Below the pieces are notes generated by a model. The model saw only the letters and a list, made by a program, of their open reading frames with translations, was not told the DNA's origin and did not search any database. A DNA stretch of 44,070 nt from the IMG/VR virus record IMGVR_UViG_3300023199_000099, positions 1 to 44,070 of that record. One strand, written 5' to 3'. A program made the position numbers and the translations under genes. This DNA comes from a virus. Shown here in pieces: positions 14,197-29,439 of this stretch (its first letter is position 1; each line of letters begins with the position of its first letter).

Positions 14197-16500
14197 GTGG
14201 CTTTTGACATCGCCAACGCCCAGCTCGCCAAGACGGCGGACCTGTCGGCCGAGTTCACGACGGTAGGAATCGGCGGCTTCGATGTGCTCGGCGACAAGAG
14301 CAAGCTATACGCCGTCGAGCGCGTGGTGGACCAGGAGGATCGGGGCACCGGCCTTTACGACGGCACCTCCGTTTATATCCGCCAGTACAGTTTCGGCACC
14401 GCCGGCGAGGTGGACACGCTCAGCTACGACAGCGTCGAGGTCGACATCCGCGCCGACATCGATGCGCACTTGAGCGGCGACCCGCTGGAGATCCGTTCGC
14501 TGTTTGTGAAGCCGGACGGCGCCAAGTTGTACGTGCTGGTCGGCGATAGTGATTTCGTCCTGCAGTACACCCTATCGACGCCCGGGGACCTGAGCACGCT
14601 TTCCAAGGACGGCATCATGGATTTCGGGCCGGCGTGGCCGCGCGCGCTGCAGTCACTCGCCCTGGGCGACAGCGGCGGCGTGATCTACGTGGACACGGAC
14701 GAGATCGTTTACGCCGTGTCGCTGTCGACGGCTTGGGACATCGTGCAGACGGCACTGATTGATGATTCGTTCGATCACGGCATCAGCGGCGAGGACAGCG
14801 CGGCGGCTTTCGCCTGGCGGGACGACGGCGGGCGCTTCTATACCGGCAGCAGCGATCTCGACGAGGCGACGGATTTTGATCAGTACGACCCGGGCGGCGC
14901 CTGGGCGCTGACGAGCCCGACCGTCACCGGAACCTTCGACTTCAAGGCCCATCACAGCCACGCCCAGGAGATACGGCTGGATTCGGTGGAGACGTTGTGG
15001 GCGGCGGCCGGCACGGAGCTTTACCAGTACACGGCGGCGCACGCGGCGCGGATCCCGCTGCGCCTGGGGTCGGCCCATTCCGCCCCCGTGCCGCTGCGCC
15101 TTCAGGCCGGACACGCCGCGGCGGTTCGCCAGCGGGCGGCGCGCGGCCACACCGCCCCGGCGGCGCTGCTGCAGCGGCACGCCGCGGGGCATACCGCGCC
15201 GGTGGCGCTGGAGCCCTTCACGGCGGTGGCGGCGGCGCACGCCGCGGGCCTCCCGCTGCGCGTGGCGGCGGGGCACAGCGCGCCGGCGGCGCTGCGGGCG
15301 TTGCGCCAGGTGGCGCACGCGGCGGTGTTCGACTTGCGCATTGACGTGGCGGCGGCGCACGGGGCGAGCGCGCCGCTGCTGGACCATACGCCGGTGCGCT
15401 CGGCGCACTCGGCGGTGTTCTCGCTGCTGGCGGCGCCGCGCACGCATCTGGCCATGGACGTGACGCTCACCGCCGGGGGCCGGACGCTGCCGGTGATCGC
15501 CTGGGATATCGGCGCGGACGAGGGCGGCTACCTCTACGAGGGCACGGTGGACGTGGGCGCGGCGGGCTACGCGGCGCTGGCGGTGGATGATGACGTGGTG
15601 CTGTCGCTGTTCGGCGAGACGTACAACCTCAAGGTGGAGAGCCGCAGCCGCGAGCGCACCGGGCCGGCGGGGCGGCGCTACGAGATCGGCCTGCGCTCGC
15701 CGAGCATCCGGCACGACTTCCCGCGCGCCACGCCGCTGACCAAGACGTTCAGCACGTCGGTGCTGGCGCGGGACGCGGTGGAGCAGCTCCTTGATGAGGC
15801 GGTGACCTGGGAGCTGGTGGACTGGCGGATCCCGGCCTTCCGCCTGGCCTGGGAGGAGGCCTCGCCCATCGAGGCGGCGCAGCAGATCGTGCAGGCGGCC
15901 GGCGGCACGCTGCAGACGGACCCGGACGGCACGCTGCGCGCCCGCCACCTTTACCCGACCTCGCCGCCGGACTACGCGGCGACCGCCCCGGCCCGCACGG
16001 TGGACGACGCGGACGACGTGGTGACTTCCAGCGAGAGCTTCGCCCCGCGCCGCCTGGTGGACCGGCTGACGATCCGCGATACGGTGCAGGGCATATTCAG
16101 CGACCGCCTGGAGTACGCGGCCGACGAGTACGACGACCGCGCGGGCACGCTGCACGTGTATCCCTCGCCCTGGCGCACCAACCTGGTGGTGACGCACACC
16201 TCGAACGCGGCGCTGGATCTCACCCAGGTGGGTGAGGTGACGCGCGATGAAGAGGAGGTGGTGGAGTTCGCCGCCGGCACGGCGACGCTGAGTTACCCCA
16301 TCGAGGCGCTGCTCGACGTTGAATGGTTGTATGTATCGCTGGGCGGGCTCACCTTTGAGGCCTTCGCGAGCGAGCTGCAGGCGGCGGACGCCGACGGCTA
16401 CAGCCTCGCGCGCATCACGTACCGCACGCGGTCGATCGATTACCGGGTGGCGAGCCCCACGGTCGACCAGGCGCAACTGCTCCTCGAGGAGGTCGCATGA
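14197..16500 (+). CDS. Tail tip / baseplate hub-like protein with Ala-His repeats
   Basis: 767 residues, GTG 14197. The first about 280 residues carry beta-propeller-like units (SLFVKPDGAKLYVLVGDSDFV). Residues about 283-410 are around ten imperfect repeats of 12-16 residues centred on A-H/G-H followed by A-P-x-x-L (for example AHSAPVPLRL, GHTAPVALEP). The C-terminal about 340 residues resemble a hub-type domain (YLYEGTVDVGAAGY, TFSTSVLARDAVEQLLDEAVTW, IEAAQQIVQAAGGTLQTDPDG), as found in tail hub proteins that hold the central channel. The function of the repeat is unknown. Confidence 0.6.
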   Translation: MAFDIANAQLAKTADLSAEFTTVGIGGFDVLGDKSKLYAVERVVDQEDRGTGLYDGTSVYIRQYSFGTAGEVDTLSYDSVEVDIRADIDAHLSGDPLEIRSLFVKPDGAKLYVLVGDSDFVLQYTLSTPGDLSTLSKDGIMDFGPAWPRALQSLALGDSGGVIYVDTDEIVYAVSLSTAWDIVQTALIDDSFDHGISGEDSAAAFAWRDDGGRFYTGSSDLDEATDFDQYDPGGAWALTSPTVTGTFDFKAHHSHAQEIRLDSVETLWAAAGTELYQYTAAHAARIPLRLGSAHSAPVPLRLQAGHAAAVRQRAARGHTAPAALLQRHAAGHTAPVALEPFTAVAAAHAAGLPLRVAAGHSAPAALRALRQVAHAAVFDLRIDVAAAHGASAPLLDHTPVRSAHSAVFSLLAAPRTHLAMDVTLTAGGRTLPVIAWDIGADEGGYLYEGTVDVGAAGYAALAVDDDVVLSLFGETYNLKVESRSRERTGPAGRRYEIGLRSPSIRHDFPRATPLTKTFSTSVLARDAVEQLLDEAVTWELVDWRIPAFRLAWEEASPIEAAQQIVQAAGGTLQTDPDGTLRARHLYPTSPPDYAATAPARTVDDADDVVTSSESFAPRRLVDRLTIRDTVQGIFSDRLEYAADEYDDRAGTLHVYPSPWRTNLVVTHTSNAALDLTQVGEVTRDEEEVVEFAAGTATLSYPIEALLDVEWLYVSLGGLTFEAFASELQAADADGYSLARITYRTRSIDYRVASPTVDQAQLLLEEVA

Positions 16501-18235: not shown

Positions 18236-18264
18236 TTGACAAGGTATACTGAGTATACTAATAT
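18236..18264 (+). promoter_or_regulatory. Sigma-70 promoter overlapped by palindromic operator
   Basis: TTGACA (18236-18241), a 17-bp spacer and TAATAT (18259-18264) make a near-consensus promoter. The spacer contains GTATACT-G-AGTATAC (18244-18258), a perfect 15-bp palindrome with one central base, ideally placed to block RNA polymerase. It drives the operon from 18330. The bound regulator is unknown; the XRE protein at the operon end or the BrnA-like RHH protein are candidates. Confidence 0.85.
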
Positions 18265-18329: not shown

Positions 18330-18548
18330 ATGAGCGAGCACACCATCACCACATGCAAGGGTGCTTACACCGGCACATTGATTGAGTGCCTGGAATGGCA
18401 GGCGACCATGCAAGGCGCCGCGCCAGACATCGACGGCACGGACATATCGGACCTGTGGATTGCCCATGGCGATGACCCGTACCGCGACGACGACGATCTC
18501 ACGCCGGAAGATGCCGAAACCATCGTACAGAGCCGCATGAACCAGTGA
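18330..18548 (+). CDS. Small acidic hypothetical, first gene of promoter-driven operon
   Basis: 72 residues, ATG 18330 with GGAGAGAGA upstream. Two Cys near the N terminus (TCKGAY, IECLEW) and a strongly acidic C-terminal half (DDPYRDDDDLTPEDAE). It follows the operator-covered promoter by about 60 bp. No family recognised; the acidity would suit a DNA mimic or an inhibitor, but that is speculation. Confidence 0.65.
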   Translation: MSEHTITTCKGAYTGTLIECLEWQATMQGAAPDIDGTDISDLWIAHGDDPYRDDDDLTPEDAETIVQSRMNQ

Positions 18549-18640: not shown

Positions 18641-18757
18641 ATGAGCAACGAGCGCGAGCAATTGATCGATGCACTCATAGCCCGGATACAGGCCAAATGG
18701 CCAAATATAGATGCCGACGGGGAGCGCGCCGATGACTGGCAGCGATGGCGCGCTTAA
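18641..18757 (+). CDS. Very small hypothetical
   Basis: 38 residues (MSNEREQLIDALIARIQ start), ATG preceded by GGAGAGAGACC, the same leader sequence as at 18330. One amphipathic helix followed by an acidic Trp-containing tail (DDWQRWRA). Its end overlaps the next gene. The strong ribosome site argues that it is translated. Confidence 0.5.
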   Translation: MSNEREQLIDALIARIQAKWPNIDADGERADDWQRWRA

Positions 18758-19046
18758 GCGCAACAAGGTCCAGATAACGCTGCGTGTCGACGCGGATGTC
18801 CTGGACGAGTATCGCGCGCTGGGAAAGGGATACCAGCGCGCGATGAACGATGCGCTGCGTAGCGCTCTACGCAAGCGCGGAGATGTCAGGCGAGAGTGGA
18901 CGCCAGTGGAGGACGACTACCTCGCGCAGCATTACCGGGCCCTCGGTGGCCGCCAGTGCGCAATCAGGCTAGGGCGCAGCCAAATGGCGATACACCATAG
19001 GGCCAGCTACCTCGGGTTGACCAATGGCGAAGAAATCACAGACTGA
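18732..19046 (+). CDS. BrnA C-terminal-like ribbon-helix-helix fused to Myb/SANT-like domain
   Basis: 104 residues from ATG 18732. Residues about 9-50 (KVQITLRVDADVLDEYRALGKGYQRAMNDALRSAL) match the C-terminal RHH part of BrnA-type antitoxins, which bind operator DNA. Residues about 56-100 (EWTPVEDDYLAQHYRALGGRQCAIRLGRSQMAIHHRAS) resemble a Myb/SANT or GcrA-type helix-turn-helix. The BrnA N-terminal toxin-neutralising part is missing here and occurs in the next gene. Overlaps that gene by 23 bp. Likely a DNA-binding regulator. Confidence 0.65.
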   Translation: MTGSDGALKRNKVQITLRVDADVLDEYRALGKGYQRAMNDALRSALRKRGDVRREWTPVEDDYLAQHYRALGGRQCAIRLGRSQMAIHHRASYLGLTNGEEITD

Positions 19047-19629
19047 TTGGCGGAAAGTCGACGCTATGACGGACGACGAGATTGACAAATCCGATATCCC
19101 AGAGCCTTCGCCTGCCGACATGCGGCGTAGTGTCCCCCGCATAGGTCTGCGTCGCTACATCCAGCACATCACGCTCACGACCGGCGACACCCGCCGGTCG
19201 TATCGTGATGAGGTCGGAGACGACGTGGTGGAGTACCTCTCCACCACGATCCTCCCGGAGGCCCTGGCCGAGCGCGAGCCCGGCGCGCAGGGGCCGGAGA
19301 TCTCCGGCATGGGCCTGCACCTGACCGCGCTAGCTCGCGGCCGGTGCGGGCTCATCGCCTCCGTCGTCTCTCCAGTCGAGGGCGGCGATCGGCCGTATGT
19401 GCCAGTGCTGGTGATGGGCGTGGCCGCAGAGCCCCGCTGCTCCCGTAAGGTGTGGGAACTGCTACATATGCCCGGTGCCTACTACGTGACGGATCCAGCA
19501 ACGCCGCCGTCTCCACCGTGGTGCGCCGCGCGCCTGGAGCCCGCCGCTTCGATCCTCGGCCGCGAACGGCTCATGATGCTGGGAGACTTTGAGCGCTGCC
19601 TCGCCTGGGCGTGGCTGGAACGGCAATGA
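19024..19629 (+). CDS. BrnA N-terminal-like segment fused to unknown domain
   Basis: 201 residues, ATG 19024. The start KKSQTDWRKVDAMTDDEIDKSDIPE is the characteristic N-terminal stretch of BrnA antitoxins, normally found before the RHH part now seen on the previous gene. Residues about 40-200 form an unrecognised domain (RRYIQHITLTTGDTRRS, GDRPYVPVLVMGVAAEPR, MLGDFERCLAWAWLE) with three or four Cys. No BrnT toxin is visible in the window. The domain could be a replacement effector or simply a phage regulator. Confidence 0.6.
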   Translation: MAKKSQTDWRKVDAMTDDEIDKSDIPEPSPADMRRSVPRIGLRRYIQHITLTTGDTRRSYRDEVGDDVVEYLSTTILPEALAEREPGAQGPEISGMGLHLTALARGRCGLIASVVSPVEGGDRPYVPVLVMGVAAEPRCSRKVWELLHMPGAYYVTDPATPPSPPWCAARLEPAASILGRERLMMLGDFERCLAWAWLERQ

Positions 19630-19829
19630 AGCTGGTCGACACCCCCGCCAAGCTGCGCGCCGCGCGCCGGGCGCTGGGCTGGACTCAGCCTTACCTGGCC
19701 GAGGAGCTCGGCCTTACGCGCGACGCGGTGGCCAAGATGGAGGCGGGCGTCCGGCCGATCGAGCGCCGCACGGACCTGGCGATCCGCTATCTGTTGGAGC
19801 GCGAGGCGCCCTCATCCGTCACGGCTTGA
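19626..19829 (+). CDS. XRE-family HTH protein
   Basis: 67 residues from ATG 19626, overlapping the previous stop (ATGA). The helix-turn-helix is clear: LRAARRALGWTQPYLAEELGLTRDAVAKMEAG. Ends 18 bp inside the convergent repressor gene. As the last gene of the operon it is a good candidate to bind the palindrome at 18244-18258 and act as autoregulator. Confidence 0.8.
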   Translation: MKLVDTPAKLRAARRALGWTQPYLAEELGLTRDAVAKMEAGVRPIERRTDLAIRYLLEREAPSSVTA

Positions 19830-20600
19830 TCCGTCGCTGCCGTCTCGCTCTGCGCCGGCGGCTCGATCGTCTGCTGCAATAAACGCATCCCCAACCTCCC
19901 GCCACCGGACGCGGCTCGCAGGGGTGAGCTGGCGGTGTATCTCCACCAGTTTTCTCTCCTCCTCTGAGATGGCCACGTCCGGCTCCTTGGTCGAGTACTC
20001 ATGTGCGCCCGGCTCGGCGACGAGCTGGGCTGGTGGGGTCATCGTGTCATAGTGCGTGAGCAGGCCCTCGTCGCCCAGCAGCGGCCAGGTGCCGGCGGTG
20101 GCGCCCGAGGCGACGGCCGCGACCGCCTCTGTGCTGGTTTGGGTGGCGCGGTGCTCGGGCAGGCCGTGCAGACGCGCCAGGGTGGCCGGGCCGGCGCCGG
20201 CGAGGACGTATATCTCGGTGTAGTGGACCCAGCGGCTCCTGCGCTCAACCGCCGCCGGCGCGTGCAGGACCAGCACATCGACGCGCCCGCCGTCGGTGAG
20301 GTGGTGGGCCGTCCATGCCTGGAACGCCAGCAGCTCGTCGAGGTAGGCGCGGCAGGCTTCGTCGGTCGCGAACCAGTGGACGATATACGGCGCGCCGATT
20401 CCTTCCGCCAGCCATGTGATGCTGGCGTTCTCCGTGCGCATGATCAGGCCGAGGACATCCGGGCCCGGGACCTCGCCCTTGAGCATGCGCCCGACGGTGC
20501 CGCGAGTGATCCCGATGGACTCCGCCCAGGGATAGGGTTTCCGGCCGGCTAATACTAGGTCCAATCTGTATTGAAATTCCTGATACACGGATTTGGGCAT
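19812..20600 (-). CDS. CI-like phage repressor without S24 peptidase motif
   Basis: 262 residues from the ATG at 20600. The N-terminal HTH (LDLVLAGRKPYPWAESIGITRGTVGRMLKGE) followed by SITWLAEGIGAP is typical of phage CI repressors of proteobacteria. The remainder (about 80-260) lacks a visible LexA-type Ala-Gly cleavage site or Ser/Lys dyad. It has a helical stretch plus VDVLVLHAPAAVERRSRW, and then a linker and an acidic/basic C-terminal helix. It is divergent from the gene at 20679, with operators between. Longer upstream starts (20663, 20630) lie inside the operator repeats and lack a ribosome site. Confidence 0.7.
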   Translation of the reverse strand: MPKSVYQEFQYRLDLVLAGRKPYPWAESIGITRGTVGRMLKGEVPGPDVLGLIMRTENASITWLAEGIGAPYIVHWFATDEACRAYLDELLAFQAWTAHHLTDGGRVDVLVLHAPAAVERRSRWVHYTEIYVLAGAGPATLARLHGLPEHRATQTSTEAVAAVASGATAGTWPLLGDEGLLTHYDTMTPPAQLVAEPGAHEYSTKEPDVAISEEERKLVEIHRQLTPASRVRWREVGDAFIAADDRAAGAERDGSDGSSRDG

Positions 20601-20662
20601 CGGTGATTGACAATGCCCGGATACGGGCATACCGTATTGAATCATTTGAATCACTTGAATCA
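20592..20662. promoter_or_regulatory. Divergent control region: inverted repeat and three direct repeats
   Basis: Contains ATGCCCG-GATA-CGGGCAT (20613-20630), a further half-site GGGCAT at the repressor start (20595-20600), and three copies of TTGAATCA at 20637-20644, 20646-20653 and 20655-20662, at exactly 9-bp spacing. A TTGACA at 20607-20612 sits between, with a poor -10 17 bp on, facing right. The arrangement fits a repressor/early-switch operator region. Confidence 0.65.
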
Positions 20663-20678
20663 ACCAGGGTTATAGCAC

Positions 20679-25050: not shown

Positions 25051-25419
25051 GTGAATATGACGTTATTGCTCACACCGGCGGAGACGGGCGGCGAGCTGCG
25101 TGTATCCTTGTCGACCGTGAAGCGCCTGGTCCAAGAGGGCGAGCTGGACTTCTTGTATGTGCGAGGCCAGCTCCGGATCCCGCGCGATTCGCTCGATGAC
25201 TACGTCAGCCGCCAAAGGGGGAACCGCAAGGCATGCCATTCAGACAACGACACTCGCGATACTGGGGCATCTCGTGGTATCCGTCCCCAGGGGCCCGACA
25301 GATTAAAAGATCGTCTGGAACGGAAGACTGGGCTGAAGCGAAAAGGCTCGAGCACGAAAAAAGAGCCCAAGCAGAGCGCGAGTGTGCTCTCCTTCCCAGA
25401 TACAGTTTCAACATCATGA
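25051..25419 (+). CDS. xis: Excisionase / MerR-type HTH protein
   Basis: 122 residues (GTG 25051; ATG 25057 possible). The first about 55 residues are an excisionase-type winged HTH: LTPAETGGELRVSLSTVKRLVQEGELDFLYVRGQLRIPRDSLDDYV. The rest is basic and overlaps the integrase start by 187 bp in another frame; int and xis overlap in lambda as well. Its place directly before the integrase supports a role in directing excision. Confidence 0.75.
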   Translation: MNMTLLLTPAETGGELRVSLSTVKRLVQEGELDFLYVRGQLRIPRDSLDDYVSRQRGNRKACHSDNDTRDTGASRGIRPQGPDRLKDRLERKTGLKRKGSSTKKEPKQSASVLSFPDTVSTS

Positions 25420-26246
25420 TGGACCGCTACCTGGACGACATCATGAATCTCGATCACCATGATCGCTCGTTCTACGCGACCCAGCGCCTGGTCGAGCACT
25501 TCGATGGGCGCAGCATTACCGACTTGAAACAGTCGGACTTCCGTGCGTATCGCAAACGTCGCTTGAGCCAGGGTGCGGCCGACAGCACGATCGACAAGGA
25601 GCTGCGCACACTTTCGGCCGCCGCCACGCACGCACGACAGAATTGGAATTGGCCTATCCAGCCGTTGCGGGTCCAGATTGAGAAGCGGGAGGGCCGGATA
25701 CGGTGGATTAAGAAGGCGGAAGCGCGGAAACTGATCAAGGCGGCGAAAGACGGGAACCAGGGCAAGGCCGGTTACTTGGCGAACTTTATAATCCTGGCGC
25801 TCAACACCGGCATGCGGCACCGTGAGCTTCTCAATCTGGAGTGGTCCCGCGTGGATTTACACCATAACCTCATCTATCTAGGGCCGGTCGATCAGAAGGG
25901 CAAGAGACACTCCTCCGTGCCGCTCAACGCCGCCTCGAGACGCGCCCTGAAGCGCCAGCTCGGCCAGCATAATAAGTACGTTTTTGTATACAAGGCGGGT
26001 GAGGGAGTTCGGAAGATCCAGTCCGTGCGTAAATCATTCGCCACCGCGTGCCGCAACACCGGGCTCCAGGACTTCCACGTCCATGACCTGCGCCACACTT
26101 TTGTGAGCTGGATGGTCCAGTCTGGTGTGCCCCTGCGCACGGTCAGCGAAGCGGCCAGGCACAAGAGCATCGAAACCACCATGAAGTACGCACACCTGGC
26201 GCCCGAGCACGTCAGGGACGCTGTCGAATCCAACAGCTTCGGCTGA
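25233..26246 (+). CDS. int: Phage integrase (tyrosine recombinase)
   Basis: 337 residues, ATG 25233. An arm-binding N-terminal domain (RYWGISWYPSPGARQIKRSSGT), a core-binding domain (about 58-140) and a catalytic domain with R195 (TGMRHRELL), K224, H284/R287 (HDLRHT), H310 and nucleophile Y319 (TTMKYAH). All key residues are present. It ends 94 bp before the attP core, the usual int-attP arrangement, so it is the enzyme that inserts the phage in a host tRNA-Pro gene. Confidence 0.92.
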   Translation: MPFRQRHSRYWGISWYPSPGARQIKRSSGTEDWAEAKRLEHEKRAQAERECALLPRYSFNIMMDRYLDDIMNLDHHDRSFYATQRLVEHFDGRSITDLKQSDFRAYRKRRLSQGAADSTIDKELRTLSAAATHARQNWNWPIQPLRVQIEKREGRIRWIKKAEARKLIKAAKDGNQGKAGYLANFIILALNTGMRHRELLNLEWSRVDLHHNLIYLGPVDQKGKRHSSVPLNAASRRALKRQLGQHNKYVFVYKAGEGVRKIQSVRKSFATACRNTGLQDFHVHDLRHTFVSWMVQSGVPLRTVSEAARHKSIETTMKYAHLAPEHVRDAVESNSFG

Positions 26247-26694: not shown

Positions 26695-29439
26695 ATGGCA
26701 TCAATTGACGACCTCAAGGAGCTGATCGATCTCCACGACCTGGCCGACAAGATGGGCCTGGAGCGCCCGCACAGCCGAGGCAATTATAAGAGCCCGCACC
26801 ACGACGATAAGTCGCCGTCGCTGTCGATCTACGATAACGGCAGGCGGTGGAAGGACCACAGCCAGGACGGCGCCGGCGGGAGCTGCGTTGATCTGGTCGT
26901 GTATGTGCTGGGCTGCGAGGTGGGCGAGGCGGTGCGCAAGCTGCACGAGTGGTACGGGCTGCCCATGCATCGCCCGGACACCAGTGCGCCGCGCCGGGAG
27001 AAGAGCCGGGCGGAGTGGATCGCTGAGAAGGTGACAGCGGATCCGCAGCCGGCCAGGGAGTACCTGGAGGGCCGCGGTATTGATGCGGATGTGATCGGGC
27101 GGGCCTTCAAGCACAAGACGGTCGGCTTCAACGCCTGGCGCAGCGAGCGGGTGCCGGAGGGGGAGTTCGGGCATGGCGGGCCTGGGGTGTCGTTCGTGGT
27201 GCGCTCAATGAACCCGGGCCACGTGGTGGCGGTGGATACGCGCTACCTGGATCCGGACCTGAACGGCGGCGTCAAGACGCAGACGCAGGGCGACAAGGCC
27301 GGGGCGCCGTGGGTGATGGAGCCGAGGCGTATCGAGAAGGCGCAGGTGGTTTATATCGTCGAGAGCCCGATCAATGCGCTCTCGGTGGAGAGCTGCGCGA
27401 TGCCGGGAACGGTGGCGCTGGCGACGCGGGGCACGCAGACGATCGACAGCATTGACTGGACCTACCTGCGGGGTAAGTCGGTGCGGGTCTGCATGGACTA
27501 CGACGCGCCGGATGATTATGGCCGCTGCGCCGGGCAGTCGGCGGCGTGGCATTTGTATCACGTGCTGGCGTGGCACGGGATCTCGGCGATGTTGGTCAAC
27601 CAGTACACCTGGCCGGACGATGAGTGGAACGACATCAACGACGTGATCCAGGAGCTGGGGCCCGACGAGACGCGGAAGAAGCTGAAACAGCTCGATGAGG
27701 CGATCATCCCGGGCATGCACTGGGATACGACGCGCCAGCTCGGCAAGCCGCGGGTGTATTTGCCGCCGCACGATTTTGGCGTCTACGGGACCTACCGCGT
27801 CACCGAGGACTTTACGCGCCGGCTCAAGGAGAAGACCGACGACGAGGGCAACACGCAGAATGAGTGGAACGACGTCTGCGGCTTCCGGATCGTGGATATT
27901 TCCCGGGTGCGGATCGCCAGCGCGAAGTCGGTGATGACAGGCGAGGCGGACTATCAGCCCACGACGCTGTTCTCGGTCTCCGTGCAGGAGGCGAGCCATG
28001 GGCGGGACCTACAGCGGCGGGTGTTCACGCCGGAGCGGCTTTATAACGTCGAGCACTGGAAAAAGCTCGGCTTCGTCTACAACCAGGGCCACTTCACTCG
28101 AATGGTGAACATTCTGAGTCGGACGGTGGACCTGGGCTCGCATGACGCGATCAATTTTGTCGGTCTGGCCTGGCGCGACGGCCGGCCGGCCGTGAATGAA
28201 GGGCCGGACTGCTATTTCATCGAGGCGGATAAGCAGTGCCCGTATCACAACTTGATTTTCCCCCGCGGCACGCCCGCCCAGGGCGCGCGGGTCGTCGAGG
28301 CCTATCAGCGCACTTTCACGGACAATGCAGCCGTTCTGCCGCTCGTGTGGGGCTTGGGCGGGCATCTCAAGGCGTTCCTGGGGTTTTGGCCGCACTTCGT
28401 GATGGAGGCGGAGAAGGGGGCGGGAAAGAGCACGCTGATCAAGCGCCTGGAGTCGACGCTGGCGTTCATCATGTTTTCCCGCACGCAGATGGAGACGCCG
28501 TTCCGGACGGTGACGTCGACGTCCCATACGTTTCACCCGGTCGGCTGGGAGGAGCTGTCAGCCGGCAAGCAGGAGGTGATCGACAAGGCGATATCGACGC
28601 TGCAGGAGACCTACCAGTACGCCATCGAGCGCCGTGGCGCTGAGATGACGGAATTTGTGAAATGCGCGCCGGTGATGCTCGCCGGCGAGGATGTGCCGGT
28701 GAAAAGCCTCACCGGCAAGCTGATCCGGACGCAGCTGCATGTATCCAAGCAGGGGCCGGTGCTGGACGACAATTTGCCGGCATTCCCGGTGCGCGGGTGG
28801 CTCGAGTTCCTGGCTGGTTTTACCAAGGCGCAGGTCAAGGAGCGATACCGCAAGGCCCAGGAATACTGCATGGCCAAATCGAGCGCCACGGGCAGCGACG
28901 GCGGCGCCAGGCGCATGGTGGAGAACTACTCGGCCGTTTTGTGCGCCTGGAGCCTGCTGTGCGACTTCCTAGAGATGGGCAAGCAGCAGGGCGGGTTCGA
29001 TGACGACCTCATCAAGGAAATGAACCAGCACATCAACGAGACGAGCTCGGACCGCGAGCCGTGGGTGTGGATCATCGAGACGCTGCTCAGTGAGATCTCG
29101 AGCAACAATTTCCAGCATCCGTACCTGTTCGAAGCCACGCGGGGCAATCAGCCCGTGCTGGCGATCCGCCCCAGCCATGTGATGGACCATATTGCCCACA
29201 CCAACCGCCTGAGAGCGAAATGGGACTCGCTGCCGGTCAAGACCGCCCGTGTGCTGAAGCGCCAGATGGTCGGCGCCGACGTCCTCGTCAAAAACGACTC
29301 AGGCGCCCCTGTGGAGGTCGAGCGCACCATCGGCAACCGCCGCGAGGGCCACCTGCTGCTCCTGGACCTGGACCGCCTCGAGCAATACGGCCTGTATGCC
29401 TCAATCCCGGAGAACATCGACCATGAGCCACAGTTCTGA
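26695..29439 (+). CDS. Primase / P-loop helicase-type replication protein
   Basis: 914 residues, ATG 26695. Residues about 29-70 mirror the DnaG zinc domain (SPHHDDKSPSLSIYDNGRRWKDH...GGSCVDLV), but the usual zinc cysteines are mostly replaced. A toprim domain follows, with E223 (IVESPINALS) and D268/D270 (VCMDYDAPDD). A P-loop GAGKS at about 576-580 (EAEKGAGKSTLIKRL) starts a C-terminal ATPase domain. This combination is typical of stand-alone phage replication proteins that prime and unwind. It lies directly before the iteron region. Confidence 0.75.
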   Translation: MASIDDLKELIDLHDLADKMGLERPHSRGNYKSPHHDDKSPSLSIYDNGRRWKDHSQDGAGGSCVDLVVYVLGCEVGEAVRKLHEWYGLPMHRPDTSAPRREKSRAEWIAEKVTADPQPAREYLEGRGIDADVIGRAFKHKTVGFNAWRSERVPEGEFGHGGPGVSFVVRSMNPGHVVAVDTRYLDPDLNGGVKTQTQGDKAGAPWVMEPRRIEKAQVVYIVESPINALSVESCAMPGTVALATRGTQTIDSIDWTYLRGKSVRVCMDYDAPDDYGRCAGQSAAWHLYHVLAWHGISAMLVNQYTWPDDEWNDINDVIQELGPDETRKKLKQLDEAIIPGMHWDTTRQLGKPRVYLPPHDFGVYGTYRVTEDFTRRLKEKTDDEGNTQNEWNDVCGFRIVDISRVRIASAKSVMTGEADYQPTTLFSVSVQEASHGRDLQRRVFTPERLYNVEHWKKLGFVYNQGHFTRMVNILSRTVDLGSHDAINFVGLAWRDGRPAVNEGPDCYFIEADKQCPYHNLIFPRGTPAQGARVVEAYQRTFTDNAAVLPLVWGLGGHLKAFLGFWPHFVMEAEKGAGKSTLIKRLESTLAFIMFSRTQMETPFRTVTSTSHTFHPVGWEELSAGKQEVIDKAISTLQETYQYAIERRGAEMTEFVKCAPVMLAGEDVPVKSLTGKLIRTQLHVSKQGPVLDDNLPAFPVRGWLEFLAGFTKAQVKERYRKAQEYCMAKSSATGSDGGARRMVENYSAVLCAWSLLCDFLEMGKQQGGFDDDLIKEMNQHINETSSDREPWVWIIETLLSEISSNNFQHPYLFEATRGNQPVLAIRPSHVMDHIAHTNRLRAKWDSLPVKTARVLKRQMVGADVLVKNDSGAPVEVERTIGNRREGHLLLLDLDRLEQYGLYASIPENIDHEPQF

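Follow-up and report, generated by a model that had tools for sequence, protein, structure and literature searches.

BrnA-type antitoxin segments on two neighboring genes of a phage accessory locus, one joined to a phrog_28365 domain

Organization of the locus

The window analyzed here is the whole of a 44,070-nt stretch of viral DNA (positions 1 to 44,070 of IMG/VR record IMGVR_UViG_3300023199_000099). A presumed operon on its plus strand comprises, in order from a promoter-like site at 18236, a 72-aa open reading frame (ORF) without a family match (18330–18548), a 38-aa ORF (18642–18758, MSNEREQL...DDWQRWRA) that overlaps the start of the next gene, gene 1 (18732–19046, 104 aa), gene 2 (19024–19629, 201 aa), and a gene for an XRE-type helix-turn-helix (HTH) protein (19626–19829, 67 aa). 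An upstream ATG at 18711 would extend the gene 1 product to 111 aa, and 19611 is an alternative start of the XRE gene. Genes 1 and 2 overlap by 23 nt, and gene 2 shares its last 4 nt with the start of the XRE gene. The convergent neighbor on the minus strand (19812–20663) resembles phage repressors (phrog_4, 2.7e-4; phrog_2328, 7.2e-4), so that the small operon beside a repressor proposed in the first-pass annotation was recovered, with the promoter-like site upstream.

That site (18236–18264, plus strand) is sigma-70-like, reads TTGACA-17-TAATAT and agrees with the consensus at 10 of 12 bases; one such site was found against 0.6 expected in shuffles, which is by itself not significant. Between its −35 and −10 elements lies a candidate operator, the perfect 15-bp palindrome GTATACTGAGTATAC (18244–18258), which has no mismatches and is unique in the window (0.10 matches expected at ≤3 mismatches). 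The palindrome was absent from 19 brnTA promoters, eight of which contained TATATA. GTATAC was considered as a shared operator of ribbon-helix-helix (RHH) antitoxins and rejected, being absent from all 19 of these promoters.

The end of the 38-aa ORF, DDWQRWRA, bears a faint likeness to TDWxxVDA in BrnA arms and might be a remnant; the ORF did not stand out in profile searches. Elsewhere in the window, a tyrosine-recombinase-like integrase was recognized by eye at 25233–26246, and a primase-like gene at 26695–29439 contains a stretch 75% identical to gene 2 of Burkholderia phage KS5; from these two genes the virus is taken to be a temperate phage. In a 767-aa tail-region protein (14197–16500), AGHTAPVALRL-like units are repeated along an internal stretch. 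An 8-residue pattern scan with one of this phage's tail genes returned no relatives.

BrnA-type segments of genes 1 and 2

BrnTA is a type II toxin–antitoxin system in which the toxin BrnT is a ribonuclease and brnT usually lies upstream of brnA. BrnA, a common bacterial antitoxin, consists of a toxin-gripping arm and a DNA-gripping head. The head is a C-terminal RHH domain, and BrnA controls brnTA transcription, as described in passages of PMC11980606.

Gene 1 carries the C-terminal RHH part of BrnA. A Pfam search matched its product to PF14384 (BrnA_antitoxin) with E=1.8e-13, over profile positions 30–67 of 68 only, and the matching segment (18747–18866, profile positions 29–67 at 51.8 bits) scored 51.1–51.8 bits against a curated cut-off of 26.1; it was the one PF14384 match in the 44-kb record. 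On a profile of 60 unselected BrnAs gene 1 reached 48.2 bits, with a shuffle maximum of 10.2. The remainder of the protein (18891–19022) is a D5/Myb-like HTH, which matched phrog_323 in a PHROG search (E=3.7e-6) and shares 53% identity over 47 aa with a segment of mycobacteriophage HNH-endonuclease/methylase genes. Structure prediction from the single sequence gave a pLDDT of 41. The combination of a BrnA RHH head and a Myb/SANT-like HTH had been suggested before and is borne out by the PF14384 and phrog_323 matches; carrying both an RHH head and a D5-like HTH, the gene 1 product is predicted to bind DNA. Close relatives were sought in IMG/VR with exact 8-residue patterns, from which relatives below about 70% identity can escape, and none were found; the same method was used for the scans of species genomes.

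The other part of BrnA lies at the start of gene 2. Residues 1–42 (19024–19149) correspond to the toxin-binding arm, and in tblastn residues 1–44 were 58% identical to a plasmid BrnA of Gloeocapsopsis (E=2e-7) and 51% identical to one of Chroococcidiopsis (E=1e-5), both of which have a BrnT gene listed alongside. When six full-length BrnAs were made into a profile, gene 2 aligned at positions 8–54 and gene 1 at positions 45–83; as this profile was built from BrnAs found with gene 2, a second test was made with BrnAs for which the RHH half had been the sole search criterion. Arms of such BrnAs were combined with the antitoxin fragment of PDB 7vd7, and on this second profile gene 2 scored 39.6 bits (E=1.5e-11), whereas no other segment in the six frames of the window exceeded 5.3 bits; the arms used were picked by eye among the 60 BrnAs and are mostly of the SDIPE type. 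Against the unselected 60-BrnA profile the arm scored only 8.8 bits, compared with 9.3 for the highest-scoring of 5000 shuffles, a result explained by the variability of BrnA arms. We thus assign the segment, on sequence similarity, to the arm of one BrnA subgroup (TDW..ID.SDIPE), the motif of which is intact in gene 2. Third-position GC content (GC3) was 0.62 in the arm versus 0.82 in the domain fused to it (p = 0.011).

BrnA similarity was accordingly present in both proteins, where its absence had been named beforehand as the outcome that would speak against the idea, and the proposed swap of the two halves between neighboring genes agrees with their positions on the full-length profile. 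Arm and RHH, which form one polypeptide in BrnA, are here divided between gene 2 and gene 1. It is very probable that a BrnA-type antitoxin has come apart into its two halves, which were fused to other domains in the opposite order, with gene 2 built from an arm and a phrog_28365 domain as described here.

The phrog_28365 domain and its genomic context

Gene 2 gave no Pfam, NCBIfam or PADLOC match, and the first-pass annotation had described its last 160 or so residues as an unrecognized domain. This description does not hold: residues 44–201 (19153–19626) form a phrog_28365-type domain (E=1.8e-4), and the same PHROG was matched by 21 of 23 family members. All family invariants are kept (T50, P165 and GDFERCxAWAW at 187–197; alignment A2), and the presence of both the H.TL.TG..R.S...EV and the GDFERCxAWAW motifs marks the domain as full-length. 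A family profile, which included gene 2 itself, matched it with E=2.5e-48. A motif scan and a homology search together yielded about 40 relatives, carried on viral contigs, bacterial genomes and plasmids and distributed over Proteobacteria, Firmicutes and Leptospira. By these matches, phrog_28365 is a widespread phage and plasmid family without a name or an assigned function.

AlphaFold2 with the family alignment modeled gene 2 at a mean pLDDT of 87; within the domain, most positions exceeded 90. The Foldseek comparison that had been suggested for gene 2 gave no match in the PDB at E≤0.001 and one relative, A0A8S5VMJ7, in a viral library; the modeled fold is apparently new. No toxin family or known toxin fold was found for the domain (Pfam, NCBIfam, PADLOC; PDB at E≤0.001), and gene 2 had no recognized match among anti-CRISPR (acr) families.

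The relatives mostly start a few residues ahead of the first strand, and the domain normally stands alone. None of 47 phrog_28365-domain matches (duplicates and the window counted) carried a BrnA arm outside gene 2, and a pattern scan for other arm–domain fusions returned four chance matches, none in frame. The canonical arm motif had no match in the viral contigs scanned, and the arm is therefore rare in phage contigs. Neither close relatives of gene 2 (8-residue patterns, IMG/VR and one genome per species) nor copies of the pair formed by genes 1 and 2 were found. As judged from these alignments, gene 2 is a complete phrog_28365 accessory protein, the own start of which has been replaced by a BrnA arm. 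Two diverged copies of the domain were seen on Cereibacter plasmids (locus L002, 1646–2122 and 4097–4609); the N-terminal extension of one of them contains QIPEASP, a likeness that may be due to chance and was not counted as a BrnA arm.

In the relatives, a small gene typically lies immediately downstream of the phrog_28365 gene or overlaps its end. At least 13 of 24 such downstream neighbors were XRE-type by Pfam, with further cases of the TrfB/KorA and RHH types, whereas an HTH or repressor match was found for about two of 24 upstream neighbors, a comparison somewhat biased by the choice of downstream genes for overlap. Weak matches to Aca2_YdiL were obtained for four of the 24, and a few partners matched Xre-like or MqsA antitoxin models, also weakly. 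Several plasmid copies of the domain lack a small downstream gene. Clustering of the neighbors by sequence, with crude gene calling, produced no clusters. A small DNA-binding gene directly downstream of the domain, a feature drawn from this analysis, is represented here by the XRE gene. Since the domain gene of the relatives precedes a small DNA-binding gene, the equivalent of which is 19626–19829, the conserved unit is gene 2 together with the XRE gene, and gene 1 is an addition. The earlier treatment of genes 1 and 2 as the unit is thus to be revised: no other copy of the pair was found in the searches made, and what recurs beside the domain is the small gene downstream. The XRE protein is probably the autorepressor of the operon.

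Candidate toxin partner of the arm

The role of the arm was approached through PDB 7vd7, of which only the sequences were compared. Its chain A is a BrnT relative that matched a plasmid BrnT with E=6.4e-13, a stronger match than the BrnT structure 3u97, and its chain B, named antitoxin, has 44 residues that align with residues 13–55 of full-length BrnA (E=2.8e-6) and stop where the RHH begins. Gene 2 aligns with this chain around DDEIDxSDIP, an alignment that is weak alone (E=0.84). Because 7vd7 pairs a BrnT-family toxin with the same BrnA segment, a toxin-binding role can be proposed for the arm: the part that grips the toxin probably lies on gene 2, and the part that grips DNA on gene 1.

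As had been reported for this locus, no BrnT lies nearby. PF04365 had no match at E≤10 in the 44-kb record, which may be a fragment of the virus, and there is no cognate brnT adjacent to either gene. Among possible hosts, BrnA was detected above the cut-off in 107 of the 369 genomes sampled from one class and in 41 of 240 from another. As BrnA is common there, BrnTA presumably is too.

Discussion

Neither BrnA half is new, and the domain fused to the arm comes from a known, unnamed family. The separation of the halves and their swap onto two neighboring genes was found neither in the other records searched nor in the literature seen. Two accounts of this arrangement, capture of BrnT and a recombination chimera, appear about equally likely.

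We tentatively favor capture, at somewhat less than an even chance: gene 2 would capture a BrnT-type ribonuclease via its arm, and regulation would fall to gene 1 and the XRE protein. The arm would grip a ribonuclease from the host or from a rival element, and gene 2 would thereby neutralize or tether BrnT while the phage or prophage is active, a form of counter-defense in which a phage effector would have acquired the arm of an antitoxin. Operon transcription from the promoter at 18236 may be tuned by the two regulators. The BrnT-capture function, taken by itself, is held with similar reserve. In its favor, both BrnA parts are real and complementary, and the arm motif and domain invariants are kept; the frequency of BrnA in possible hosts and, by analogy, the existence of phage antitoxin mimics are compatible with it, as is the presence of small DNA-binding genes after the domain in other family members. 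Against it, the arrangement is a single instance, with the arm present in no relative of gene 2 and no close relatives in the collections searched, the candidate operator is not shared by the 19 brnTA promoters, and the difference in GC3 between arm and domain is as expected of a recent, possibly neutral join.

That last point leads to the second account, which we consider quite possible. The arm and the RHH would be scars of a brnTA module that once occupied this accessory (moron) site; the arm would have no toxin partner, gene 2 would be an ordinary phrog_28365 protein, and gene 1 a generic DNA-binding protein. Acidovorax phage Acica holds an intact brnTA at a comparable site, between late control gene D and the repressor, and brnTA at such a site is therefore a plausible source of the BrnA parts. 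The junction also falls at similar sequence, the BrnA linker/strand "..Q.ITLR" against the domain start "YIQHITLT", and both the restriction of the arm to gene 2 among phrog_28365 proteins and its lower GC3 fit such an origin. A scar would nevertheless be free to decay, whereas both BrnA pieces keep full consensus motifs in open, overlapping frames with probably coupled starts; a recent scar, on the other hand, would show no decay yet.

A new toxin–antitoxin pair, which the first-pass annotation had raised and for which we obtained no positive evidence, is less likely than either and on the whole improbable. The toxin would be the phrog_28365 domain, with its antitoxin supplied either by gene 1 or by the small DNA-binding gene downstream. 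A domain followed by a small XRE-, RHH- or KorA-like protein is a layout known from toxin-first operons, and the weak matches of a few partners to Xre-like or MqsA antitoxins point the same way. The domain nevertheless matches no toxin family and no known PDB fold, gene 1 is not conserved with it, and the variety of unrelated folds among the partners is easier to reconcile with an autorepressor than with a specific antitoxin. Least probable is a split antitoxin, in which the two products would associate, rebuild BrnA, and regulate and neutralize a BrnT encoded elsewhere: the halves are complementary and adjacent and their genes are probably coupled by the 23-nt overlap, but each half is now part of another module, both are short and may come from different BrnAs, and the record contains no BrnT.

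If the arm works, the two jobs of the antitoxin, toxin neutralization and operon control, would be separable in nature and re-usable by a phage, and gene 2 would be a directly testable counter-BrnT protein. The strongest form of the capture reading is rather unlikely: a phage would have dissected the antitoxin, grafting its arm onto an anti-defense-type protein to capture or redirect host BrnT and re-using its head as a separate regulator. Were it true, arm grafting could be a general phage route for retargeting an accessory protein to a host toxin. The phrog_28365 family deserves attention independently of the arm. Being widespread, apparently of new fold, and found in a regulator-coupled layout like that of anti-defense genes, it is a good candidate for functional screening as an anti-defense or toxin–antitoxin family (19153–19829 in the window; loci L014–L049).

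Comparison with known systems

Like BrnTA (PF14384, PF04365; PDB 3u97, 7vd7), the locus has an SDIPE-type arm and an RHH, both with consensus motifs; unlike BrnTA, it carries them on separate proteins, in reversed order and each fused elsewhere, without a BrnT gene. BrnTA on a phage has a precedent in the P2-like Acica (L013), the brnT-brnA of which is intact. Rearrangement of BrnA modules by fusion is known from BrnT–BrnA fusions and HTH-type BrnAs (PMC11980606); in the cases described in passages of that source the toxin is joined to the antitoxin or the DNA-binding head is exchanged, and those passages do not describe separation of the BrnA halves. Phage antitoxin mimics, for example against DarTG, are described in part of PMC11481870. 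They resemble gene 2 in that a phage protein carries an antitoxin part; the DarTG case is an antitoxin mimic, whereas here the arm alone sits on an unrelated domain and its function is putative.

Compared with the other phrog_28365 proteins, gene 2 lacks no part of the domain and none of its invariants and is followed, as is usual, by a small DNA-binding gene; it differs in that relatives start at the domain and gene 2 alone has a BrnA arm. Anti-CRISPR genes are often followed by HTH regulators of the aca type, according to passages of PMC9410906, and the locus shares with acr/aca operons (PMC9410906, PMC8434428) a small effector gene overlapped by a small downstream HTH regulator gene; gene 2 has no recognized acr and the domain families are unrelated, so that the likeness is one of gene layout.
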